Source: Lentisphaera araneosa HTCC2155 (GTDB taxonomy: Bacteria > Verrucomicrobiota > Lentisphaeria > Lentisphaerales > Lentisphaeraceae). From it: a stretch of DNA of 64,000 bases. Below are positions 32,877 through 45,799 of the stretch, piece by piece (position 1 is the stretch's first letter; each line of letters starts with the position of its first letter). The DNA is taken from NCBI RefSeq assembly GCF_000170755.1, contig NZ_ABCK01000004.1, positions 62,001 to 126,000 of the forward strand, in the 5' to 3' direction. The notes beneath the pieces are model-generated. The model was not told the origin of the DNA. It did no database searches and worked only from the letters and a program-made list of their open reading frames with translations. Both the position numbers and the translations under genes were made by a program.

Positions 32877-33781
32877 TTTCTAGCAACTTCTTTAAACTGC
32901 AGTGAGCCTACAAAAGAGTCTTTGAGTGCCGAAGGCATGGTATAACATAGCCCAATGGCGTAAGCCTTGGTGGAAATGGATAATGATATTTTGTGAATGC
33001 CGAAGGTATGATATAGAGCCCTATGTCGTTCCTCCAGAACTCATGTTTTCATTGATTTTTTTACCTAGTTCTCACGAACTAGGCTTAGTTATGGCGTGCC
33101 TTCAGCACTCAAAACAAGACTAAAAGTTTTAATCCTCTGCGCCCCAGCGACTCTGTGTGATATGAAATATACCATAGGCAAGATTCCTACGAGCCCTAAA
33201 ACAGCAAGCCCTTAAGCCTGTAACTTCTCGGTGTTCTCTGTGCAATCTGTGGTGAAATTTTTCTTGAAACATAAGTACTAATCAAAAACTTAGTGTCTTG
33301 GCGCCTTCGCGAGGGAAACCTAAGAATAACTCCCATGTGCTAGTTCACAAAAAACATTATTATCACGCCAAGACGCTAAGTCGCCAAGAAGGACAATTTG
33401 AATTATTTCAGAATGAAACAAGTCAAAAGCGATGTTTTAACTCTGCGCCCCAGCGACTCTGCGTGATATGAAATATACCATAGGCAAGATTCCTACGAAG
33501 CCCTACAACAACAAACCCTTAACCCTCTAACTTCTCGGTGTTCTCTGTGCACTCCGTGGTAAAATTTTTCTTAAAACATAAGTACGGATCAAAAACTTAG
33601 TGTCTTGGCGCCTTCGTGAGAAAAATCTAAGGCTAACTCGAAGAACTCAAATAGGAAATATAGGGACGCCGTCACCGACCCTACGAGGCTTGCCAGCCAT
33701 CGACCGGCAGAATAAGAAGGAAGTTATTAATGCAGGCAAGATGCCTGCGCTCCCAGCAAAAAACTATTTACTCTGCCAACT
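32877..33781. repeat. Repeat block: two 180-bp 'CTCTGCGCCCCAGCGACTCTG' elements plus REP hairpin
   Basis: There is no gene in these 905 bp. A 180-bp sequence occurs at 33135-33316 and again at 33441-33620 at roughly 90% identity. Both run from CTCTGCGCCCCAGCGACTCTG through CATAGGCAAGATTCCTACGA and TCTCGGTGTTCTCTGTGCA to CTTAGTGTCTTGGCGCCTTC. A reverse phrase (CGCCAAGACGCTAAGTCGCC) lies between them. Near 33686 CGAGGCTTGCCAGCCATCG and at 33725-33745 the hairpin GCAGGCAAGATGCCTGC appear, both shared with the 20-22 kb blocks. At 32900-33120 two short segments share GTGCCGAAGG/GTGAATGCCGAAGG phrases. Confidence 0.75.
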
Positions 33782-34657
33782 TTACTTTATAAAGAGTGAA
33801 CGCTGCTTTTCTCTGCCAAAACCTTGGACCAGAATGCTTTCTTGATTCAATTTTATTATGGCGTAGGTATTCTCGGGAGTATCCACCATGCCCTTGAGTG
33901 TGAGGTAATGTATGCCTTGTTTCTCTGCGTAATTCCCCTTGTGGTTGTGACCGTTGATATAAGCTTTGACGCAAGGATAATCTTCTAACAGAGCGACGAG
34001 TTCTTTTGCATTCCATAAATTATGTGGGTCTTTTGGATAAACGGGGAAATGAGAAAAGAGAATGACTTGTTGATTGCCTTCTTGTGATTCTTGAAGCAGG
34101 GTTTCTAACCACTTCATTTGTTCTTCACCTACCGCACCATTCCATTTTGGGCTAGTGATCTTTTTTGTTTTGTAATACTCAGCGGCATATTTGTATTCAG
34201 GACTCTCTTTGGGGTAGGCATGAAAGCTCACATCGTTACCATCGAGTATGATAAAGCGCCAGTTCGCTTTATCGAAGTAATGATATTTTGAGTCCATCCC
34301 CATTTTTGTGGGCACATCTTTTTTGAGTTCATCGGCAACATCAAAGTCGTGATTGCCTAGGGCATGATAATGATCAGCTTTCAGACTATTATAAATGGGT
34401 AAGACCACGTCAAAACTTTTAAAATCTTTATCAATGAGATCGCCTAGATGAATGACAAAATCTAAGTCCTCTTTGTTGAAGTGTTCTACACATTGAGCAA
34501 GCTTTTTATGAGAGCTCGAGTATTTGCGAACTCCGCGACTTTTTTGATCACAGTACTGGCAGTCAGCCACGGCACCAAAAGTGAGTTTTTTTGTGTTCGT
34601 GCTTGAACAGGAGCTCAGAATTAAGCATAAAATGAGAAAAGCTGAAAATTGTTTCAT
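33782..34657 (-). CDS. Metallophosphoesterase lipoprotein, ADPRibase-Mn-like
   Basis: 291 residues with a lipoprotein signal peptide (lipobox LSSC, Cys17). Calcineurin-like metal motifs in order: ADCQYCD, HLGDLID, ALGNHDFD, FSHFPV and NGHNH. The spacing, and the segment VRKYSSSHKKLAQCVEHFN between the first two, resemble Mn-dependent ADP-ribose/CDP-alcohol diphosphatase (ADPRM). The protein likely cleaves a phosphodiester or pyrophosphate outside the cytoplasm, where nucleotide scavenging would make sense. It is a single gene, 159 bp from the MoaD gene and on the same strand, so it may be read through from the long operon. Confidence 0.85.
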   Translation of the reverse strand: MKQFSAFLILCLILSSCSSTNTKKLTFGAVADCQYCDQKSRGVRKYSSSHKKLAQCVEHFNKEDLDFVIHLGDLIDKDFKSFDVVLPIYNSLKADHYHALGNHDFDVADELKKDVPTKMGMDSKYHYFDKANWRFIILDGNDVSFHAYPKESPEYKYAAEYYKTKKITSPKWNGAVGEEQMKWLETLLQESQEGNQQVILFSHFPVYPKDPHNLWNAKELVALLEDYPCVKAYINGHNHKGNYAEKQGIHYLTLKGMVDTPENTYAIIKLNQESILVQGFGREKQRSLFIK

Positions 34658-34816: not shown

Positions 34817-35092
34817 TTAGCCACCAGCAATAGGGCTCATGAAAGTGATCGGGTCCGATTTCTTGATAGGGCTTTGCTTGTCATGTTCATACTGATTATC
34901 ATTCACAAAAATTAATATCGAGGGATGGATAGAGCTGGACGACTTGAGAAGGACTTCACTGAGAGATGGCTCCATTTCACATATACGGAGGACGATATCT
35001 TGTATATTGAGTTCTTCAATGGATTCCATATGAATAAATTCTTTCCCAGCTTTTTGCTTGAGCTGGCCCCATAACTTAATTTTATAATTCAT
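34817..35092 (-). CDS. MoaD/ThiS-like small sulfur-carrier protein
   Basis: 91 residues with a beta-grasp pattern (YKIKLWGQLKQKAG at the start) and the C-terminal Gly-Gly (FMSPIAGG) that is adenylated and thiocarboxylated in MoaD and ThiS. It is the last gene of the PQQ-ABC operon and overlaps the ModC gene by 11 bp. No MoaE, MoeB or ThiF is beside it. The link to a ModABC-like transporter argues for molybdenum cofactor supply, but a special sulfur-carrier role in this operon cannot be ruled out. Confidence 0.85.
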   Translation of the reverse strand: MNYKIKLWGQLKQKAGKEFIHMESIEELNIQDIVLRICEMEPSLSEVLLKSSSSIHPSILIFVNDNQYEHDKQSPIKKSDPITFMSPIAGG

Positions 35093-35750
35093 ATGATTTA
35101 TGACTCTCCTTAGGGATATTAATAATTCTCCCTTTTGATAATTTAAAAATGATTGAGCCCAAACTTTGCGCTTCTCGCATACTATGAGTGATGTGTAAGA
35201 CAGTTAGTTTTTTTAACTTAACTAATTTGGCAAGAAGCTGGCTGATTTCATCATGAAGTTCTTCATCTAAAGCTGATAAGGGTTCATCAAAACATAAAAC
35301 TTCGGGTCCCATAGCTAGAGCTCGAGCTAAGGCAACGCGTTGCTTCTCTCCACCACTTAAAGTATTGGGATAAGAGTTGAGGACTGAAGTGATTTCCATT
35401 AGTTCGGCAAGTTCAGTAACAGTTTTATTGATTTCATTGCGAAGTGTTTTTTTAATGGTGAGGGGAAAAGCAATTTGTTCACCAGCACTTAAGTGGGGAA
35501 AAAGTGCCCCATCTTGGGGGACATAGCCAATTTTTCGATCCCAGGGATCCATGTGGCTTATATTTTTGTCATTGATGAAAATGGCCCCTGAACTTATTTT
35601 GCGCAGTCCGCAAAGCGCTTCCATTAAAGATGTTTTTCCCGTTCCACTGCCCCCCATCAGAACCGCATAGGCTTGTGATGGAATGGTGAGGTTGATGTCC
35701 TCTAATGAAAAGTCACCTTGTTGGATATGTATTGCTTCCATTTTAATCAT
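35082..35750 (-). CDS. ModC-like ABC transporter ATP-binding protein
   Basis: 222 residues. Walker A GGSGTGKTS, Q-loop YVPQDGALFPHLS, signature LSGGEKQRVALARAL, Walker B VLCFDEPLSALD and H-loop HITHS are all intact. The Q-loop and signature are those of the molybdate/sulfate importer class. It lacks the C-terminal MOP (TOBE) domain of full ModC (about 350 residues), so it is a short form. Start overlaps the permease gene by 4 bp (ATGA). Confidence 0.9.
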   Translation of the reverse strand: MIKMEAIHIQQGDFSLEDINLTIPSQAYAVLMGGSGTGKTSLMEALCGLRKISSGAIFINDKNISHMDPWDRKIGYVPQDGALFPHLSAGEQIAFPLTIKKTLRNEINKTVTELAELMEITSVLNSYPNTLSGGEKQRVALARALAMGPEVLCFDEPLSALDEELHDEISQLLAKLVKLKKLTVLHITHSMREAQSLGSIIFKLSKGRIINIPKESHKSYEL

Positions 35751-36766
35751 TTGCGAATACTCTCCCCGGAAGCAAATAGGCGTGTAATGATCAATATAAT
35801 AATGGATAAGAAAATCATCATTAGCGAGATGACCAAAGTCCCTTTTAAACTACCTGATTGGAGCTCGAGAAAGACAGAAGTGGGCAGTACTTCTGTACGA
35901 AATGAGGTGGAACCAGCAAAGACGAGAATAGGGCCAAATTCTCCAAGTGACCTAGCCCAGGCTAAAGTGAGTGCGGTGATTATACCATAGCGAGCTTGGG
36001 GTAAAATGACGAGAAAAAAAGCTTGAGTTCGATTACAGCCTAGAGTGAGTGCGACATTTTCAAAACGAGTTGGAATGCGTTCAAATGTGACACGTAATGT
36101 TCTGACCGCAAAGGCGCAGGCTACAGTAAATTGAGCAATTATGACGGCTGGGATCTCGAAAACAATCCATTGACTGACCCAGGAGAAGGGCGCTAAATTA
36201 AAGAGTGCTAATAGACTGATACCAATAACCAAAGGCGGAAGGATAATGGGGATGTCCAGGACTGCATCAACAAACTTTTTAGCGGGGAACTTATGGTGCG
36301 ACATGATGTAAGCAATGGGAATGGCAACCCAAATAGAAAGGATAGAAGATAGCGAGCAGCTCAGGAGACTCAAAATGAGTGAATAGCGAATCTCCGGGGA
36401 ATAAAAAATGTTGAGAAAGGCGTCGGTTCCACTAAGTTCCGCCATCGTCAACCTCTCACCCTTTCTTATCATGTCGCCATCTTCAACAATGACTGTTTCA
36501 TAATGTAGGGATTCAGGATTTCGCTCAATAAAAAAAGTTTCTTGATTATCCTCGCTTTCGATACCTATGGAATTATCTCCCCCATGTAGCCAGTTGAGTG
36601 TGACCTTTCCTCCATGGCGACTGATCAAGCCAGCTTTTCCTTGAGGTTCTTTCACAAGGTAGAGGAAATCTGCAGCAATAAATAAGATAAGCATGAGAAA
36701 ATAAAAAGTACTTATCGTCCATAAACTGAGCCTAAATACTTTATCAACTTGTTGCTTATTGATCAA
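35747..36766 (-). CDS. ModB-like ABC permease with an inserted extracytoplasmic segment
   Basis: 339 residues, longer than ModB (about 225). One N-terminal membrane helix (about 12-34) is followed by about 95 soluble residues (HGGKVTLNWLHGGDNSIGIE...) before the usual five-helix permease core. The core has the EAA-like loop FENVALTLGCNRTQAFFLVILPQA that docks the ATPase. The extra segment would lie outside the membrane and could contact the double binding protein encoded just upstream; this is inference. Overlaps both neighbours by 4 bp. Confidence 0.88.
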   Translation of the reverse strand: MINKQQVDKVFRLSLWTISTFYFLMLILFIAADFLYLVKEPQGKAGLISRHGGKVTLNWLHGGDNSIGIESEDNQETFFIERNPESLHYETVIVEDGDMIRKGERLTMAELSGTDAFLNIFYSPEIRYSLILSLLSCSLSSILSIWVAIPIAYIMSHHKFPAKKFVDAVLDIPIILPPLVIGISLLALFNLAPFSWVSQWIVFEIPAVIIAQFTVACAFAVRTLRVTFERIPTRFENVALTLGCNRTQAFFLVILPQARYGIITALTLAWARSLGEFGPILVFAGSTSFRTEVLPTSVFLELQSGSLKGTLVISLMMIFLSIIILIITRLFASGESIRK

Positions 36767-38310
36767 AGCTCACCCTGCCATTGAAAGCCCGCTTTGAGAA
36801 AGCGCTGACGTGACTTATCGGACTTTAATGTTCTTATTAAGCGTCCCATGAGAAGGGGGTATTTTGATTTTTTATTTATGCTAATATTTTGTATTGCAGT
36901 TGCTAAAGGATGTTGAATGGGGATAAGCTCATATTCTTGGTTGAGTAGGGCACAGTTGGCGGTATAAACTAGTGCAGCATCCAATTTGTCGTGGGCAGAA
37001 AATGCGGTTAATAACTCGTGTGCTGTGGGAGTCGTGACAATAGCATTTTGTTTAGCTTGTTCTTCTATTTTTAGTTCTCTAAGCATTTTCCAGCTGAGGT
37101 AGCCAAGAGTACTTTTTTTGGGATTAGTGGTGCCAAATTTTATCCCTTCATTTTGTAGGTCACTTAAAGCTTTAATGTTTTTTGGATTGCCTTTTCGAAC
37201 GAGGATGACAATCTCTGTGGAAGAAACATCTTTGGCTGCGATGAAATCATTTTTGACTTTGTCGTAATAGCTCGCATCACAAGTCATGAACCCATCTGGC
37301 CCTTGCAGGGAGTCGGCTTTGATAGAGGCGACTAAGGTGCCGCAACCAGCATATGAAGTACTGATCTTTACGCCCTCTCGTTCTTCAAATTCTTTAATGG
37401 TTTTACTGACGGCATTTTTATTAACGCCTCCACAATATAGGTTCAGGGCCGGCTGACTGGCCCATGAATCACCCGAATTAGGAGTGAAAGCATACTTTTC
37501 GAAAATATGTGCTGACTCAGGTGCAGATAGGTAACGAGCTAGGTGTAAGGCAGTGGAGGGTTTGGCATTATTACTAATTAAATTTACTGAAATCTCGGCG
37601 CGTGAATTATTTAATTCCTCTAAGTCAATGATTCTTAGATCAAATTGTTTAGCGGTGGTATCCCATATAATGCCAGCACGAATATCCTGGGAACTTTTTA
37701 TTGAGGCAGCGCATTCAGTAACTTTTGAATGAATAACTTTGGCATTAGCTTTGAGCTTATCCCATAGCTCGTGGGGCATGAGGGTGTCTTTCGTTTTTTT
37801 TCCGGCTCCAGCGCGTTCATTGCAAATAGCTAGCTTGATGTTTTTTTTGAATAAATCATCAAAAGAATTGATCTTTATAGGGTCATCTTTTTTAAGGGCA
37901 AGAACGAGACGAAAACTCGCGAGGGGGAGCTGCTCAGCACTTAGTTTTTTGGCTAAAGTCCTGTCGGTAAATGAATTGTCAGCAGGGATGTAGAGGTCAG
38001 TTCTGCTTTTGTTGAATTGGGCATCTTGTTGGATTTTACTCTCTAGCTCCCCGCTAGAGCCATACTCGATCTGAACTTTCACTCCGGTCTCATTTTCATA
38101 GTTTTGACATATTTCTTTGATGGGCATTCGTATCCCTGCTGCGCAGTAAACGAGTAATTCATCATCTTGAGAAACCGTGTTCTCATCATTCATTTTAAAA
38201 ATGGCGAGACCAAGAACAAAGACCACGATTACCGAGATGAAAAAGTTTCGTAAGCCATGTTGTTGAGAATGTTGAAATAAATTTTTATCTGTGTTGATTT
38301 TTTTAGCCAT
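36763..38310 (-). CDS. Membrane-anchored double ModA-like substrate-binding protein
   Basis: 515 residues. One membrane anchor (about 24-42) precedes two tandem ModA-type binding domains: the first begins ELLVYCAAGIRMPIKEICQNY and has the GSSGELESKI anion-loop pattern, and the second begins LNLYCGGVNKNAVSKTIKEF with AGCGTLVASIK. ModA proteins bind molybdate, tungstate or related oxyanions through such loops. Two fused domains on one anchor are unusual. Whether both bind the same ligand is unknown; the anion-binding Ser residues are kept in the first but changed to CGT in the second. Confidence 0.85.
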   Translation of the reverse strand: MAKKINTDKNLFQHSQQHGLRNFFISVIVVFVLGLAIFKMNDENTVSQDDELLVYCAAGIRMPIKEICQNYENETGVKVQIEYGSSGELESKIQQDAQFNKSRTDLYIPADNSFTDRTLAKKLSAEQLPLASFRLVLALKKDDPIKINSFDDLFKKNIKLAICNERAGAGKKTKDTLMPHELWDKLKANAKVIHSKVTECAASIKSSQDIRAGIIWDTTAKQFDLRIIDLEELNNSRAEISVNLISNNAKPSTALHLARYLSAPESAHIFEKYAFTPNSGDSWASQPALNLYCGGVNKNAVSKTIKEFEEREGVKISTSYAGCGTLVASIKADSLQGPDGFMTCDASYYDKVKNDFIAAKDVSSTEIVILVRKGNPKNIKALSDLQNEGIKFGTTNPKKSTLGYLSWKMLRELKIEEQAKQNAIVTTPTAHELLTAFSAHDKLDAALVYTANCALLNQEYELIPIQHPLATAIQNISINKKSKYPLLMGRLIRTLKSDKSRQRFLKAGFQWQGEL

Positions 38311-38313
38311 AAC

Positions 38314-38967
38314 TTATACGAGTTCTCCGTTTTTCATTGAGTATTGTTTATTACTATATGAGTGAATTCTCTGGTCGTGGGTAACCATGAGAACCGCCCC
38401 GCCAGATTGACAAAATTGACTGAGGTTATCCATAAGGATTTTGGTGTTTTCATCATCGAGATTGCCCGTGGGTTCATCTGCAAAAATAAGTGATGGAGAA
38501 GTCACTAGAGCTCGTGCTGCAGCGACGCGTTGTTGCTCGCCAACACTGAGCTGAGACGGTTTATGTTTGAGGCGATGGCTGAGTTGAAAGCTATCAATGA
38601 GTTTGAGTGCCTTTGCCTTGATATTGGGTATCTGAATATTAGCTGAAGGTAGGGTGATGTTCTCTAAAATATTGAGATAGGGAACTAAATGAAATTGTTG
38701 GAAAATGAAGTTTAAGTGCAGTGCTCGGAAGCGGGTCCGTTGACCAGAGTTCATTTCGTAGAGGTTTTGATTTTGGATGATGACTTCACCACTATCGGGA
38801 GTGAGTAGGCCAGCACCCATCATGAGCAAAGTCGATTTGCCACAACCACTAGGGCCGTGGATAGAAAGAAAATCACCAGATTGAGCATGGAGGTTGAGCT
38901 CTTTAACGGCCTTTACTGAAGAACTTTGCCCATCATAGGATTTACTTATTTGTTTGATTTCAATCAT
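38314..38967 (-). CDS. LolD/MacB-type ABC transporter ATP-binding protein
   Basis: 217 residues. Walker [11 protein letters not shown]-loop [18 protein letters not shown], signature [15 protein letters not shown], Walker [13 protein letters not shown] and H-loop MVTHD. The Q-loop and EPTGNLD are typical of the LolD/FtsE/MacB class that pairs with FtsX-type permeases, and the FtsX gene lies 5 bp upstream. The signature has LSVGE rather than LSGGE. The pair probably moves a lipid, lipoprotein or peptide, or does mechanical work on the envelope, rather than importing a small solute. Confidence 0.92.
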
Positions 38968-38972
38968 AATAA

Positions 38973-40343
38973 TTAATCCTGTTTTAAGAGTGTGGCGGGG
39001 TCAGTGGATAATGCTTTGGCACTAGCCGGAAATGCGGCCACTAAAGCGATAAGAGGACCAAAGATAAAAACAGACAGTATTTCTTGGAAGAATAAAACCG
39101 GGGGATGCTGGCTATTGAGTACAGGATCGAAAGGAGTGTTGAAACAGCTCAGGACTAAGAAGAGGCAAAGGCAGGAGGCTAAAAGGCCTGATAGGCAACT
39201 TCGACTGAGGAAGATGAGAAAAACCTTGCTCTTTGAAAAGCCGTTGGCTGAGTAAATTCCCAGCTCATTTCTCCGTTCCCTAAGGTTGTGCATAGATAGG
39301 ATAAGGATAGTTAAAATAGCTAAAGAAAGCGAGGAACTCATAATGATAAGAGAATTTTTTCTAAGGCCTGAACGTAAAACTTGGCGTTGGTTTTTTATTC
39401 CCTTAAGCTCATCGCTTGCTTGCACTTTTAATAAACTTAATTGTTCCTGACGGGCCTTGGCGGCATTGACGCGCGCTTCGGCTCGAGCCAATGCAGAACT
39501 TTGTTTTTCTATGACCTTGGTGCCAGGTAAAATAGCTTGAACTTCCGCCCGTACTTCACCGAGACGGTCGAGGCTTGCACAATTGCAGTTCAGAGCGAGA
39601 ATGGAACTGATTCTACCTTCGAGATTGAAGAGCTCTTGGCAATCTTTGAGGTTGATCCAGACAGAAATATCATCTTTTGATCCACGTTGCTCATGGCATT
39701 TTACAATGGTGAACTCCTTCCCTTGTAACTTAATCTTTGAATTGACTTTTAATCCGATCTGTCGATGAAGTTCGTATCCTAAAACAATTTCGCCACTTGT
39801 GACTGGGTCGAGCAAGGCTCCTTTGATCCTACCCTTGTCATCAGTGACTAAACCGCGATGGGCAATGGGAACTTCGCCACGTGTACCAATGACAATGATA
39901 TTTCTTTTTTGCTCAGTCCAATCAATTTTTCTGACCAGGCGTGGCAGTAGGTGGTTGATTTTGGCCAAGCTTTTTGTTTGCGCTAACTTATTCACATAAT
40001 TTTCAGGCATGGTTTTACTAGCGAAGCCACGGTCGTGAACATCAGCTAAGTTTTGCCCTTCGGGAAAAATGAAAATGTTAAAGCCCAAGCCTTTCATGTT
40101 TTTGCGTATTTGATCCTCGAGCTTTGTAATGATGGCTTGAGTTTCCTCTTGGTGCTTTTTGTTAGTTTGGTACCAAGTTTCTTCATTGATTCTCAGTGTC
40201 GAATTGGTCTCGCTATCAAAGCTTCTTAAAGAAATGATACTGATTAACAGACTGAATAATCCTGTTGCCATGAGCAAAGTTGAGCTTAGGAAGGCAAGTT
40301 TACGATACATGACTTCCCTAATAATGATTTTAAAACAAGACAT
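38973..40343 (-). CDS. FtsX/MacB-like ABC permease
   Basis: 456 residues. One N-terminal membrane helix (about 14-36), a large extracytoplasmic region (about 37-320) that includes a coiled stretch (ARAEARVNAAKARQEQLSLL), then three C-terminal helices with the FtsX motif RRNELGIYSANGFSKSKV on the cytoplasmic side. The last residues SADPATLLK-like (STDPATLLKQD) are typical of MacB-type permeases. It is in an operon with the LolD-type ATPase and probably acts together with it. Confidence 0.9.
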   Translation of the reverse strand: MSCFKIIIREVMYRKLAFLSSTLLMATGLFSLLISIISLRSFDSETNSTLRINEETWYQTNKKHQEETQAIITKLEDQIRKNMKGLGFNIFIFPEGQNLADVHDRGFASKTMPENYVNKLAQTKSLAKINHLLPRLVRKIDWTEQKRNIIVIGTRGEVPIAHRGLVTDDKGRIKGALLDPVTSGEIVLGYELHRQIGLKVNSKIKLQGKEFTIVKCHEQRGSKDDISVWINLKDCQELFNLEGRISSILALNCNCASLDRLGEVRAEVQAILPGTKVIEKQSSALARAEARVNAAKARQEQLSLLKVQASDELKGIKNQRQVLRSGLRKNSLIIMSSSLSLAILTILILSMHNLRERRNELGIYSANGFSKSKVFLIFLSRSCLSGLLASCLCLFLVLSCFNTPFDPVLNSQHPPVLFFQEILSVFIFGPLIALVAAFPASAKALSTDPATLLKQD

Positions 40344-40354
40344 GATACAGGGGC

Positions 40355-41698
40355 TTATTTAAAGCAGTAGATATGACCTGCATCAGTACTAACCACCAAG
40401 GACTGATCAATAATGGCTAAACCGTAAGCTCTACCATTGACTTGTAGTTTTTGTTTGAGCTTCCCATTGTGTGCATCCATAATCAAGACGGCGTTATCAC
40501 TGCCACCGATTAAGGAGTCTCCGGCCTTAATCCATGAAATGGGTGTTTCTGCATCGACTTTCCAGAGGGTAGTCGACTGAATATTCTTATTAATGACAAC
40601 AAGTTCTTTATCAATTTCCTTTGTGCGTACTAAATCTTCGGCAGTAGGCTTGCGCTTTTTAGCCGTAAATGAATTCTTTTCTTTGATTAATTTATCTCGC
40701 TGCATGGTGTGTTTTGAATAGTTTATTCGGTTGATGCAATGCAGTTGCCCATTCTTGTGATAAAAGGCTTTTTCTTTATCAATGATCATGCGGTCAGTGC
40801 CATCTAAGGTCACCATATTGGTTTTTGACTTTGTATTGGTCATCAGCACGACATCATTTTTGTTTTTTTGGTTTCTGGGCCCAGAAATTAACATGTCATC
40901 TTCACTCACGAGTAGGAAAGTGGAACCTGCATTTCCCAAGGAGCCATTGCGTTGACCCGTATTTTGTTTAAATAGAAGGGCGGAGGCTCTCCCCTGGGGG
41001 ATGATGAGTTGATCTGAGGCTGATAATATAGCGCCCTCGAGGGTGGCCTTGCTATATTCTGTTTTATAAATTTCAGAGCCATCTTCGGCGTTTACACAGC
41101 ATATATAAGAGGTCTCCCAAGGGACTAAGGAATTCGCAAAATATGCTTTGCCATTTTCCACAATGACTCCCGTACGGCAAGGCCACATGGAGATGAATTT
41201 GCCATTGCTGGGGATGGTACGTCCATTGTTGACAGCCGCATATTTCCACAGCAGTTCACCCTTTAGATTGATGCAGTAGACAAAACCATCATCAGAACCA
41301 AAATAAAGTTTGTTTTGACTAATAGTAGGGGGGAAGCGAACAGGGGCATTGGTGAAGAAAAGCCAATCTTCTATTCCCGTTTTAAGGTCGAGGCAGTGTA
41401 CGGCATTATCAATGGAAGATGAAAAGTAAACTTTACCATTTTGACCCGTGACAAAAAAAGCGGGATCAAAATTACGTAGTGATTGAAGCCCTGTGTTTGC
41501 CGCCCAGGCATCCCATTTTGCCGGAGCACTCCAAGCTGTTTGTGGGCGTGTTTCTGAAAGTCGTTTCCACATGGGTTTGAGTTGAGAGGATATTATGTCG
41601 GAGCTCACGCCACTTCGTCTATAATCGTGTTTGTAGGTAGGCCAGTCTTTTGCTTGAATGAAGCTACTGATGCAGAGTAAGGTGAATAAAAGTTTCAT
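40355..41698 (-). CDS. Secreted PQQ-like beta-propeller protein
   Basis: 447 residues from the ATG at 41698, which overlaps the upstream TAA by one base (TAATG); the longer frame to 41713 adds only MGDKI before the signal peptide. Signal peptide MKLLFTLLCISSFIQA. WPTYKHDYRRSGVS is the standard opening of a PQQ-enzyme-repeat propeller, and blade motifs recur (VHCLDLKTGIEDWLF, VYCINLKGELLWKY, CVNAEDGSEIY). The last blade closes with GHIYCFK. No quinoprotein catalytic residues are evident, so it is more likely a BamB-like scaffold or binding protein than a dehydrogenase. Confidence 0.85.
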   Translation of the reverse strand: MKLLFTLLCISSFIQAKDWPTYKHDYRRSGVSSDIISSQLKPMWKRLSETRPQTAWSAPAKWDAWAANTGLQSLRNFDPAFFVTGQNGKVYFSSSIDNAVHCLDLKTGIEDWLFFTNAPVRFPPTISQNKLYFGSDDGFVYCINLKGELLWKYAAVNNGRTIPSNGKFISMWPCRTGVIVENGKAYFANSLVPWETSYICCVNAEDGSEIYKTEYSKATLEGAILSASDQLIIPQGRASALLFKQNTGQRNGSLGNAGSTFLLVSEDDMLISGPRNQKNKNDVVLMTNTKSKTNMVTLDGTDRMIIDKEKAFYHKNGQLHCINRINYSKHTMQRDKLIKEKNSFTAKKRKPTAEDLVRTKEIDKELVVINKNIQSTTLWKVDAETPISWIKAGDSLIGGSDNAVLIMDAHNGKLKQKLQVNGRAYGLAIIDQSLVVSTDAGHIYCFK

Positions 41699-44436
41699 TA
41701 TTTTGTCTCCCAAGGGCTAAAGCCCAAAGATGTTTCAATCCATCCACCGCAAGAGCAGCCAGCACCACCTTCCGGTACTAAAAGCATGCCAGAAGCCGGA
41801 ATCATGCTTAACCAGCAACTCGGTCTGAGTCTAGACCAGGTACTTGTTTTACCTGTTTCTTTTGACCATATAGAGATCTGGCGGCTAGTGCCCCGAAAGA
41901 CAAGGCCCTGTTTGATTCCCACATAATTGTGGCAGCCTTCTCGTTTGCCGATTCCTTTGCGGATTTGTTTACCAGAAATGATATTATAGGCCATGGGCTC
42001 TTGGTAAATAGTATTATCGACAATAACGGGGTGGAGCATATGACCGGAATGGTGACTACTTGGCCAATTGTGATTCACCTCCCATACTGGCTTGCCGTTT
42101 TTAATGTCAAAATTATAGATATAATACTTTTTATTTTTGCTGTTACTTAAACTAATGAGTAGACTTTTATCTGTGCTTTGCATGTAAAAAACAATATCTC
42201 CATCAACGGTGTCAATGTCCTTCTCCCAGACAACTTTACCACTTTTGGCGTTGAGACAAACGAGGAATTGATTGTTCCAAAGTTGTTCTTCAGTAATTCT
42301 GGAATCTTCGAGCTGAAGGACTTCAGGGTTTCGAGTCTCGACAAAATAAATGAGTTCATTTTGGTAGCAGATACTCGTGTTAATAATGAGACCCAACTTG
42401 TAGGTCCATAGCCTTTCTCCTTTTTTACTTAAAGCAAAGAAGCTTTCACTGCATACTTTACCAGTGCTTTTATCATTGAGATTATCATACCATTGATTGT
42501 TGCCGTAATACTCTTTGTAAATGGATTCAGGACGTACAGAGGAGCCATAAATTCGATCTTTATCTTGACCGATGAAGCCCCATTCGTAGTTCTTCATACG
42601 CTCTTTCATCTCAAGGCTATAGTGATTGATGACCTTGCCATCTTTGGCATTAATTAATAAGATATGATCATTGATAGCGGTGTATACGATTTCGCCATCC
42701 GTACACCAGTTTGACGCATCGCGAGGGATGTTGACACGACGGAGTTTGGGGATTTCTAGGGTCCATAAAATACTTCCGTTATGGGCATCAAGTGCGGCCA
42801 TGCGATTCATGCCTTGGTGGAATAGTCGGCCATTGGCAGATAGGGGGGCGGGCATTCTCGGGTTGCGATCAATTCCGAAATCGCCACCAGGTCGTCCGAT
42901 CCATTGCAGTTTCAGGTTTTCACTACTACTCATATTATTTAAGCTTTCCCCAGAGTATGTACTGTTGTTTCCTGATCCATATTGCGAAAGCCATTGCCCT
43001 TGGCCCTTAAGTTCCATTTTCTTGGCAATTGAAAACTTTTTATGGGCAATAGTTTTGAAATCGGCATGAGGGGGGATTTTACTCGTGCTTATAAGGACTC
43101 CAGATGGTTTCACATGTTTCACAAGCTTTTCAATGGTGGATGATTTTACGCCGCTCAGTAAAAGGGTGTTGAAAATGTTTTGGCTTAAACTTAAGTTTTT
43201 TAAGTCTTTATAATAATAGGCGTTTATACGTGAGCCATAAAGTTTATTCTTGTATAGTGAGAGACGCAGTTTGTTGACTAGAGCATCATTATCGTGGAAA
43301 TAAGAGATCTGCATCTTGCTTTGCGCCGCAAGAGCCAGCAGTAATGACTCAGAGGTTTTTCCAAAAATGGCTAGGTGACCATGGGAGTTTTTACTGAGCT
43401 TAAGGATTTCTTGAGCTGATTGAAGTGCAAGAGAACTTTTCGTTTCTAGGGGAATAGGGGCGTAATTAACATTGCTCTCCAATTCGAATAAAGGGTTTTT
43501 GAACTCTTGGCCAGATTTGTTGCTAGCAATGATTTTATATTTGTATTTGTAGCCTTTATTCAAGTTTTTTAAAATGAATTTTTGTTGCTTAGAGCTTGAG
43601 CCTTTATATATTTCCTTAGTTCCGGAGTGATGGTAAAGTTCGACATGACAATTCATTGGCTCAAAAAGGTGGAAGTTAAGTTCGGCACTACTTGGTGAAA
43701 GGAATTGTAAAATGGGCGTTCTGTCAAACGGAAGTTCCTTGGGGAGAGCCTTGATAGATGCGTCTGAAAGGGACTGGATTTGTGATTGATTTAAAGCTTT
43801 ATTTTGAAAACCAGCACTGATCATTAAGCCATTTAGAGGAGTTCTTTCATCTTTGTCTTTATAAGCACCTACAATGAGCTCACCAAAATCAGCATAGAGA
43901 ATGCTACCCGATAGGTCTCTGCGACCAGTGAGCTTACCATTGATATAGATTTTAATTTCTTTTCCATCATAGACACCCGCTACATGATAAAGAGTGTTTT
44001 TCTTAAACTTCTCACTACTTTGTACATAGCTGAGTCGCCCTGAAGTCGCCACGGCAAAGTTGAAGTTGCCTTCGTTATAACCCAGTAACCAACCTTTTTC
44101 GTAACTTCCGTTATCTTGGAAATGGCCAATGATGGAACCCCACTTTGTCCCTTCTTTTAAAGAGACAATGGCTTGAGCACTGACTTTCTCCCTAGGTAGT
44201 CGTTCAAGAGTTATTTTCGGGAAACTCAGTACATTCCCACTAGCTTGCCAACCATATCCATCAATATTGGGAAGTTCTTCAAATTTTCCTTGTTCCTTAG
44301 CGCTTGAAGAAATAATGCTTTTCCCTTTGATCATTTCTTTATTGAACTTTACGGAGAACTCTTCAATTACCTCCGAGTGAAGTTGAGCCGCTAAGGGAAT
44401 GAGGAGGAGGGTGAGAAACTTGTAGCTTATTTTCAT
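41698..44436 (-). CDS. Secreted LamG - degenerate methyltransferase - PQQ-like propeller protein
   Basis: About 912 residues from the ATG at 44436, chosen because AGGAA precedes it and the signal peptide MKISYKFLTLLLIPLAAQLHS follows; the ATG at 44472 would add 12 residues. Domains in order: LamG/concanavalin-like (about 70-210), a short FN3-like stretch, a Rossmann-like segment resembling a class I methyltransferase without a clear SAM loop (HGHLAIFGKTSESLLLALAA), then a PQQ-type propeller beginning LKLQWIGRPGGDFGIDRN and ending near GGAGCSCGGWIETSLGF, which has a Cys-rich CSCGG motif. It is the first gene of the eight-gene operon. Propellers with such a degenerate methyltransferase piece recur in Planctomycetes. 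Confidence 0.82.
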   Translation of the reverse strand: MKISYKFLTLLLIPLAAQLHSEVIEEFSVKFNKEMIKGKSIISSSAKEQGKFEELPNIDGYGWQASGNVLSFPKITLERLPREKVSAQAIVSLKEGTKWGSIIGHFQDNGSYEKGWLLGYNEGNFNFAVATSGRLSYVQSSEKFKKNTLYHVAGVYDGKEIKIYINGKLTGRRDLSGSILYADFGELIVGAYKDKDERTPLNGLMISAGFQNKALNQSQIQSLSDASIKALPKELPFDRTPILQFLSPSSAELNFHLFEPMNCHVELYHHSGTKEIYKGSSSKQQKFILKNLNKGYKYKYKIIASNKSGQEFKNPLFELESNVNYAPIPLETKSSLALQSAQEILKLSKNSHGHLAIFGKTSESLLLALAAQSKMQISYFHDNDALVNKLRLSLYKNKLYGSRINAYYYKDLKNLSLSQNIFNTLLLSGVKSSTIEKLVKHVKPSGVLISTSKIPPHADFKTIAHKKFSIAKKMELKGQGQWLSQYGSGNNSTYSGESLNNMSSSENLKLQWIGRPGGDFGIDRNPRMPAPLSANGRLFHQGMNRMAALDAHNGSILWTLEIPKLRRVNIPRDASNWCTDGEIVYTAINDHILLINAKDGKVINHYSLEMKERMKNYEWGFIGQDKDRIYGSSVRPESIYKEYYGNNQWYDNLNDKSTGKVCSESFFALSKKGERLWTYKLGLIINTSICYQNELIYFVETRNPEVLQLEDSRITEEQLWNNQFLVCLNAKSGKVVWEKDIDTVDGDIVFYMQSTDKSLLISLSNSKNKKYYIYNFDIKNGKPVWEVNHNWPSSHHSGHMLHPVIVDNTIYQEPMAYNIISGKQIRKGIGKREGCHNYVGIKQGLVFRGTSRQISIWSKETGKTSTWSRLRPSCWLSMIPASGMLLVPEGGAGCSCGGWIETSLGFSPWETK

Positions 44437-44671
44437 GAAAATTCCTGGTTTGTATAAGGCTGATTCAAGCAAGGGCTTAGGTGATATTTGTTATTTAATG
44501 TTATTTGATATAGATATTAGCTGTTGGAAGACACCGCTTCAAGCTTGCAAAGTGTGGGTTTTTTTCAACATATTAACGAAGTTTTATTTGTCTTTTGGGT
44601 TTGCATTCAGCGGATGTCTGAATAATGCTATAAACATAATCGTTTGAAAAAGAAAAGTTTAGGAAAAAAGA

Positions 44672-45799
44672 ATGATGATGAAAAAAATATGGCTATGTTT
44701 CCTTATTGTATTAAGTTCGAATGCATGTGAAGTTCCTGTTTTTCGTTTTGCTCTAGAGCGTTGGGCTGCGGATAAATACACTTTGCAATTTGATGAAGGT
44801 TTAGCTCTAGCTACAGATCCTAAAAGGCTTGAGCTTATCGATAAATTAAATAGCTTGGGCGAAAGTAAAGCTAACATAAAAATTCTTCGTCAAAAATCTA
44901 ATCAGCAGTTTTCTTCTCTTAGCTTATATGAACCAAATAAAGGAATGTTACAAGCTAAGGCAGTTTGGGAAGGTTTTTTTAATCATGAGAACTTAAATCA
45001 TTTGGTCGAATCACCTGCGAGGCAAAAGTTAGCAGACTATTTATTGTCGGGAGCTTCAGTTGTTTGGGTCATTGTTGAGTCGGGTGATAGCGAGAGGGAT
45101 GCTGAGTTTGAAAAGCAATTAAGAGCTCATGTTGCTAAGGCACAAAAAGCTTTGAGTTTATCCGATGAAATAATTTTGATGGATGATCAGGAAAAGATAG
45201 ACTCCGCTTCGACCAAAAAAGAGTTGGATAATATGATAAAGTCATCAATACCTTTAAAAATTGATTTTTCTTATCTCCGAATTTCCAAAGACGATCCTGC
45301 AGAGGAAGTTTTCTTGAGCATGCTATTTGCCAAAATGCCACCCTCTGAAAGACTCAATGAAGCTTTTGCCTTTCCCGTTTTTGGTCGAGGGCGAGTCATT
45401 AATGGAGTGCCTGAGTCAAAATTAAATGAGGCAGGGGTTGTTGAGATGTGCCAGTACCTCTGTGGTCGATGCTCTTGTACAGTGAAATCTGAAAACCCTG
45501 GCATGGATCTTTTGATGAATATTTCTTGGGATCAGTATGTTGCAGAGGGGAGTATGCAGGTACGTGAAATATTGCCTCCTCTAAGTGGTGTCTTAGAGTT
45601 AGATGATTCTCCGGAGAAGCAAGAACTCGATTCTAAAACTTCGAATGAAAGTCAAGACTTAGATCCTCAAGTCACATCACCAGTGACAAAGCAAGAAGTC
45701 TTAAAGCCAGTTACCTTTAAGTCCTTGTGGATCACAATCGGAGTCTTTGCTTTCGTCTTGGTATTATCGACTATGTTTTTGCTCAAAAAAAATAAATAA
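44672..45799 (+). CDS. Secreted/membrane protein with ACEVPVFRFALERW motif, function unknown
   Basis: 375 residues. Signal peptide followed at once by CEVPVFRFALERW, then an acidic, helix-rich ectodomain with possible thioredoxin-like secondary structure (VVWVIVESGD at about 130). A second motif has three Cys in QYLCGRCSCTVK (about residue 268-279). A C-terminal membrane helix (about 349-371) is followed by KKNK. It is divergent from the PQQ-ABC operon across 235 bp, and I associate this CxVPVFRxALERW family with planctomycete loci holding the same transporter set. A role in that system is therefore likely, the activity unknown. Confidence 0.75.
   Translation: MMMKKIWLCFLIVLSSNACEVPVFRFALERWAADKYTLQFDEGLALATDPKRLELIDKLNSLGESKANIKILRQKSNQQFSSLSLYEPNKGMLQAKAVWEGFFNHENLNHLVESPARQKLADYLLSGASVVWVIVESGDSERDAEFEKQLRAHVAKAQKALSLSDEIILMDDQEKIDSASTKKELDNMIKSSIPLKIDFSYLRISKDDPAEEVFLSMLFAKMPPSERLNEAFAFPVFGRGRVINGVPESKLNEAGVVEMCQYLCGRCSCTVKSENPGMDLLMNISWDQYVAEGSMQVREILPPLSGVLELDDSPEKQELDSKTSNESQDLDPQVTSPVTKQEVLKPVTFKSLWITIGVFAFVLVLSTMFLLKKNK

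Follow-up and report, generated by a model that had tools for sequence, protein, structure and literature searches.

The gene at positions 36763–38310 (minus strand) of the window, by which we mean the whole 64,000-nucleotide stretch of DNA that was analysed, encodes a tandem substrate-binding protein of 515 amino acids, formed of a membrane helix, an N domain and a C domain. Both domains have a ModA fold, their pockets are each conserved and unlike one another, and together they represent a recurrent pair. The explanation that we favour on balance, with moderate confidence, is that this two-domain anchored binding protein works with one Mod-type importer, descends from an old paralogous pair and offers two unlike capture sites. 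Binding proteins are usually viewed as single, swappable catchers, and a recurrent pair with two distinct pockets, fused in both orders, would point to separate duties of two sites in one importer. The ModA fold and tandem-domain importers such as GlnPQ are known already; in the open-access literature, judged by titles and abstract openings, neither a tandem ModA nor this gene cluster was the subject of any paper that we found. The nine-gene neighbourhood partly recurs in Verrucomicrobiota, Planctomycetota, Lentisphaerota and Bacteroidota, cultured strains included, which makes these ideas testable.

The open reading frame is real and complete, with an ATG start and with neighbouring genes that overlap or abut it. 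PF13531 matches the protein twice, with 250 bits in total against a Pfam cut-off of 25, and TIGR01256 (modA) matches it in two stretches, with 99.7 bits for the whole protein against a curated cut-off of 62.5. An AlphaFold model built from 53 aligned sequences (mean pLDDT 93.4, pTM 0.85) consists of a helix at residues 17–42 followed by two alpha/beta domains. This helix (38185–38262, minus strand), taken from the AlphaFold secondary structure, is the sole predicted membrane helix, and it precedes the N domain (residues 50–284; 37459–38163, minus strand), which falls in a clade that we call FN, and the C domain (residues 285–515; 36766–37458, minus strand), which falls in clade FC. When the predicted model was compared with known structures using VIA-align, residues 50–278 aligned with Yersinia pestis ModA (6nio; Z 19.9, rmsd 2.4), residues 285–512 with Lmo1041 (7tav; Z 22.2) and residues 287–512 with Escherichia coli ModA (1wod; Z 21.6), and further class II binding proteins also aligned on both halves. 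The earlier note had read this protein as two ModA-like domains on a single membrane anchor, and this is borne out by the paired PF13531 matches, by TIGR01256 and by the predicted helix and folds. It had also named as refuting a half that did not resemble a periplasmic binding protein, an outcome that did not appear, as each half has the class II periplasmic binding protein fold (Z 19.9 for N and 21.6 for C against ModA structures).

The two domains are homologous yet distant (hhalign probability 99.9%, 19% identity), and they meet at a conserved joint, G-D-x-W-x-x-x-P, at residues 280–287 (37450–37473, minus strand), in which the aspartate, tryptophan and proline are found in 53/53 rows and the glycine in 52/53. 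So short and conserved a joint suggests a fixed geometry between the domains and not a loose tether. Using a crude rule on the fused ORFs from the best 80 of 167 loci (see below), 67 of 81 begin with a membrane helix, eight with a lipobox and six with neither clear, and with 67 helix and eight lipobox starts an anchor is therefore usual for tandem proteins.

Searching genome contigs with the single window protein as query returned 84 pattern-matching stretches, none of which was confirmed, while an alignment of eight tandems as query gave 167 loci in genomes of named species, of which the best 80 were analysed. These best 80 comprise 34 loci from Verrucomicrobiota, 19 from Planctomycetota, 14 from Bacteroidota, five from Lentisphaerota, two each from Kiritimatiellota, Omnitrophota and Poribacteria, and two with no phylum assigned. 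The N-C order was seen in all 81 of their fused ORFs, and a Mod-type permease accompanied the tandem in 79 loci and an ATPase in 74. Among related genomes, 13 of 59 contained any match to the tandem, and when 383 genomes of the phylum were searched with a profile, 163 gave any match and 29 a full-length tandem; none of the matches listed from that search covered the C half alone. An N-type domain without a C domain does exist (L154, L155, L156, L159 and L008). The genome that supplied the window holds a second tandem with 36% identity to the first, and the domains of these two proteins account for four of its five PF13531 hits, the remaining one being a partial hit in a 176-amino acid frame. 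The N-C tandem is thus a member of a widespread family and no local oddity. In an Opitutia MAG (L027, 3986–7563) two tandem binding-protein genes lie side by side, the first frame probably having a false start.

On the same minus strand of the window are a Mod-type permease (35747–36766) that has an additional helix at its N terminus and an extra external segment, a Mod-type ATPase (35082–35750) and a MoaD/Urm1-like small protein (34817–35092), for which Urm1 scores over its Pfam cut-off and SAMP1 and moaD_arch below theirs. Also on this strand are four recurrent neighbours, namely a LolD-like ATPase (38314–38967), an FtsX/MacB-type permease (38973–40343), a PQQ-like beta-propeller protein (40355–41713) and a LamG plus PQQ-like beta-propeller protein (41698–44472), and a divergently transcribed plus-strand gene (44672–45799) encodes a membrane-anchored protein of 375 residues with weak thioredoxin-like matches. 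Across the 38 loci flanked on each side by at least 5 kb, the permease gene was present in 38 and adjoined the tandem gene in every one, the ATPase was present in 37, a MoeB/ThiF-like protein in 28, LolD in 20, a thioredoxin-like protein in 20, FtsX in 19, and a PQQ propeller and MoaD in 17 each. By the same searches the window cluster has all of these recurrent neighbours except MoeB, and the second cluster in the same genome does include MoeB. An extra external segment on the adjoining permease had been claimed from the window sequence, and there it is indeed present, with an N-terminal segment that is absent from E. coli ModB, but it does not extend to the family, as in an alignment of 13 family permeases the long external insert occurred, among the rows listed, only in the window, L023 and L027.

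The 375-residue protein has no Pfam match, and its model (pLDDT 80.7, pTM 0.73) gave as best fold match a weak thioredoxin-like one (Z 8.2); Cys19 and the Cys267-x-Cys269 motif are invariant in 26 rows. The two beta-propeller genes of the window match different parts of single proteins of ~1400–1500 residues in L029, L035 and L045, the L029 protein also having a weak methyltransferase match below cut-off. A lipoprotein-like calcineurin-type phosphoesterase (33782–34657) comes after the MoaD gene, and since no hit to it was assigned among the best 80 of 167 loci it is probably outside the conserved cluster.

The pockets were compared at E. coli ModA positions in the 81 fused ORFs from the best 80 of 167 loci (L027 gives two). 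The earlier note had described divergent domains with unlike anion-loop residues, and this description stands: GSSGE (residues 84–88) in N and GCGTL (residues 322–326) in C both align with the loop of E. coli ModA that holds Ser39. In N domains, the residues are Gly at position 12 (80/81), Ser or Thr at 39 (73 and 8, respectively, of 81; Ser86 in the window, 38053–38055), Ala or Gly at 58 (78/81), Val at 152 (80/81) and Trp at 170 (80/81; Trp216, 37663–37665), whereas C domains have Val or Met at 12 (77/81), Cys at 39 (80/81; Cys323, 37342–37344), Cys at 58 (80/81; Cys344, 37279–37281) and Tyr at 170 (74/81; Tyr449, 36964–36966), all of these codons lying on the minus strand. Pocket columns averaged 3.74 bits of conservation against 2.56 for other columns in N and 3.60 against 2.52 in C, and they exceeded the remainder in FN, FC and two further clades, X and Y, with 0/20000 permutations doing as well in each case, although the 17 columns used were picked after the residue table had been inspected.

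The five-residue ligand set of E. coli ModA (Ser12, Ser39, Ala125, Val152 and Tyr170) is not kept whole in either domain: of its Ser/Ser/Tyr members N retains only position 39 and C only position 170. Equivalents of this set in Acinetobacter baumannii ModA are given in PMC11734730. In Pseudomonas aeruginosa ModA, the bound oxyanion is contacted by Ala79 and forms a bond with Thr60 (PMC9171197). Assuming a constant offset of 21, we infer that these residues correspond to positions 58 and 39, and so Cys323 and Cys344 of the C domain should both face the ligand. That both pockets are conserved and mutually distinct suggests, at the level of sequence, different jobs for the two domains. The suggestion in the earlier note that two ligands may be recognised fits such a pair of pockets, as would recognition of two states of one ligand. 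Its other suggestion, that a ligand may pass from one site to the other, is at most a candidate mechanism, as the present observations speak neither for it nor against it.

Domains X and Y belong to a sister system in which similar binding proteins are found as a pair. Twenty stretches had been fetched mostly for their closely spaced hit pairs and 15 more were taken later without such choice, of which L164 alone adds an intact X/Y pair. Above 250 bits, 14 of 15 X domains were accompanied within their stretch by a Y domain, at distances of up to about 1.6 kb, and 14 of 15 Y domains by an X domain; the fifteenth X and the fifteenth Y both come from genome G256, where they sit close to the ends of contigs. 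This pairing rate is a biased estimate, given how most stretches were chosen and given that most of the rows scored with the X and Y profiles had also served to build them. The two are fused as X-Y in L016, L141 and L145 and as Y-X in L144, and are separate genes in the order Y then X in L009 and L143 and X then Y in L142. Weak Y-class hits below 150 bits occur without X in L165, L175, L011 and L012, and these, together with the N domains found alone, mean that the pair is not always needed. In a further clade, Y2, a decayed partner adjoins in four of six stretches (L010, L151, L152 and L160, the last three as weak profile hits), with none seen by profile search in L161 and L162. The L010 partner (531–1595), a second binding protein that starts like a lipoprotein, is strongly decayed but still scores 28.6 bits with PF13531 (cut-off 25).

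A careful tree built from 54 domains recovered FN, FC, X and Y as one clade each and united X with FC in one clade with support of 97/82, while a quick tree of 97 rows placed N and C in separate clades and left the relation of X to FC undecided. A single clade of Y, Y2 and FN was neither shown nor rejected (p-AU 0.366). From these sequence comparisons, it seems that two unlike binding proteins were already paired on one permease before they were fused. As fusions are found in both orders, X-Y and Y-X, the old pair was fused in at least two events, and probably in three; with the p-AU value of 0.366, the history may alternatively have been a single old fusion with later splits. In the nine X/Y stretches searched, FtsX, LolD, PQQ or thioredoxin-like neighbours were close by in four (G141, G331 and G266a, and G152 with PQQ only), a weak and distant LolD hit was present in G266b, and four were without such neighbours.

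Our favoured explanation is that the membrane-anchored two-domain protein would serve one Mod-type (type I) ABC importer, and that it would descend from two paralogous binding proteins paired long ago, the primary member (FN, Y) and a partner with an altered pocket (FC, X), whose genes would have stayed clustered and undergone fusion more than once. The N domain would capture an oxyanion, which in Moco-making hosts would belong to the molybdate/tungstate class, and would be the primary delivery domain that docks on the permease. The C domain, with its two pocket thiols, would capture another ligand or ligand form and hand it to the same permease, a step modelled on the two domains of GlnPQ. 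As a more speculative extension, which we consider conceivable but doubtful, the C or X domain may bind a soft metal or thio-oxyanion at a site lined with thiols or histidine, this site being loaded or reduced by the thioredoxin-like protein and the importer taking two chemically different ligands, or a redox-gated one, by means of a pair that predates fusion.

Evidence on the cargo comes mainly from the co-occurrence of MoaA, which was found in 23 of 29 tandem genomes and in 106 of the 354 others among the 383 genomes of the phylum (Fisher p 2e-7, kinship uncorrected; 17/22 when counted by genus). MoeB lies in the cluster in 15 of the 23 MoaA-bearing tandem genomes and in none of the six MoaA-free ones, as scored in stretches of 5.8 to 17 kb with G380, whose stretch was absent, counted as without MoeB. 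The genome of the window has MoaA, MoaE and three PF00384 hits, a family that may take in relatives carrying no Moco, and has no match to PF02738 (xanthine-dehydrogenase-type molybdoenzymes). There is hence a statistical tie between the tandem and Moco synthesis, and in hosts that make Moco the cargo probably belongs to the molybdate/tungstate class. However, MoaA is below cut-off in six of the 29 tandem genomes, all six at least 90% complete, and in 11 of 13 X/Y genomes, and so molybdate for Moco is not the universal cargo. These MoaA-free genomes also count in favour of a reading in which the importer is for a soft metal or some small anion other than molybdate, its link to Moco being secondary. 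Also in its favour, FtsX/LolD and thioredoxin-like neighbours persist in the MoaA-free G168, G231 and G366, and FtsX/LolD in G077, and position 58, the site of Cys344 in the window, is His in 13/13 X domains and Cys in 80/81 C domains. The enrichment of MoaA with the fused form argues the other way, as does the lack of any other full-length PF13531 protein in the window's own genome, which has the Moco pathway, and we give this reading limited credence.

The main rival to our favoured explanation is that only N delivers and that C (or X) is a regulatory or docking domain under redox or thiol control, possibly by way of the thioredoxin-like neighbour. The occurrence of N alone, with the C half alone in none of the matches listed, would agree with this, as would the two near-invariant thiols of the C pocket and the three invariant cysteines of the 44672–45799 protein with its weak thioredoxin-like matches. 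Furthermore, redox gating of affinity by a disulfide, at other positions, is described for A. baumannii ModA in PMC11734730. None-the-less, the whole C pocket is conserved as for a binding site, including the Tyr at 170, and the thioredoxin-like gene is present in only 20 of the 38 loci with full flanks; a C domain confined to regulation or docking appears to us rather improbable.

It is also unlikely, in our estimate, that the two domains share a single oxyanion ligand, molybdate or tungstate, and that the doubling merely raises local capture as in a high-avidity ModA. Both halves do have ModA folds, both of their profiles rank molybdate-binding chains first, and MoaA and MoeB co-occur with the tandem as above. 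Likewise, P. aeruginosa ModA lacks the fifth ligand residue yet binds with nanomolar affinity (PMC9171197), and tight binding by a protein with an altered set makes departure from the E. coli set compatible with molybdate. However, simple redundancy predicts like pockets, and the Cys at 39 and 58 in C, where N has Ser/Thr and Ala/Gly, therefore count against it, as do the hosts without MoaA. A recent local duplication or an assembly artefact is ruled out by the 19% identity, the separate clades, the constant order in 81/81 ORFs and the second tandem in the same genome.

Compared with known systems, the tandem resembles ModA of ModABC (E. coli, TIGR01256) in the fold of each half, the adjoining Mod-type permease and ATPase, and a score above the family cut-off, but differs in having two domains per chain, a membrane anchor and pockets altered at 12, 39, 58 and 170. 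GlnPQ, as described in PMC8025302, has tandem domains SBD1-SBD2 of different specificity that share one translocator, and the likeness is that two unlike tandem domains serve a single type I translocator, which in our case is suggested by adjoining genes. In GlnPQ the domains bind amino acids and flexible linkers join them to the permease in one chain, whereas here a separate anchored protein has a short conserved joint and a ModA fold, and the permease is its own ORF (35747–36766). PEB3/AcfC gave the best PDB single-sequence match of the C half and has the fold in common, but these are single-domain proteins and the C-domain profile ranks molybdate-binding chains above them, so that a PEB3/AcfC relationship was not upheld by that profile search. 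The tungstate-binding proteins WtpA and TupA share a related fold (WtpA structures Z about 20) and cargo class, but the WtpA equivalog model scores 25.1 bits on the tandem protein against a cut-off of 242.75, and the 13 families listed for it include no TupA binding-protein model.

We also scanned the window and L020, L088, L064, L053, L040 and L076 for structured RNAs, and no Moco riboswitch was detected at the gathering threshold in these seven sources, the three matches being two Acido-Lenti-1 RNAs and one tRNA. The Acido-Lenti-1 RNAs (RF01687) lie just beyond both clusters of the window's own genome (window 33064–33109; L020 15012–15057), but this placement was set aside as probably chance, there being 124 matches in that genome. 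Some of these are in regular arrays (for example C2:230586–230899, with a 67-base period) and matches often lie side by side on both strands, a pattern that suggests a palindromic repeat dispersed in the genome more than a solitary sRNA gene.
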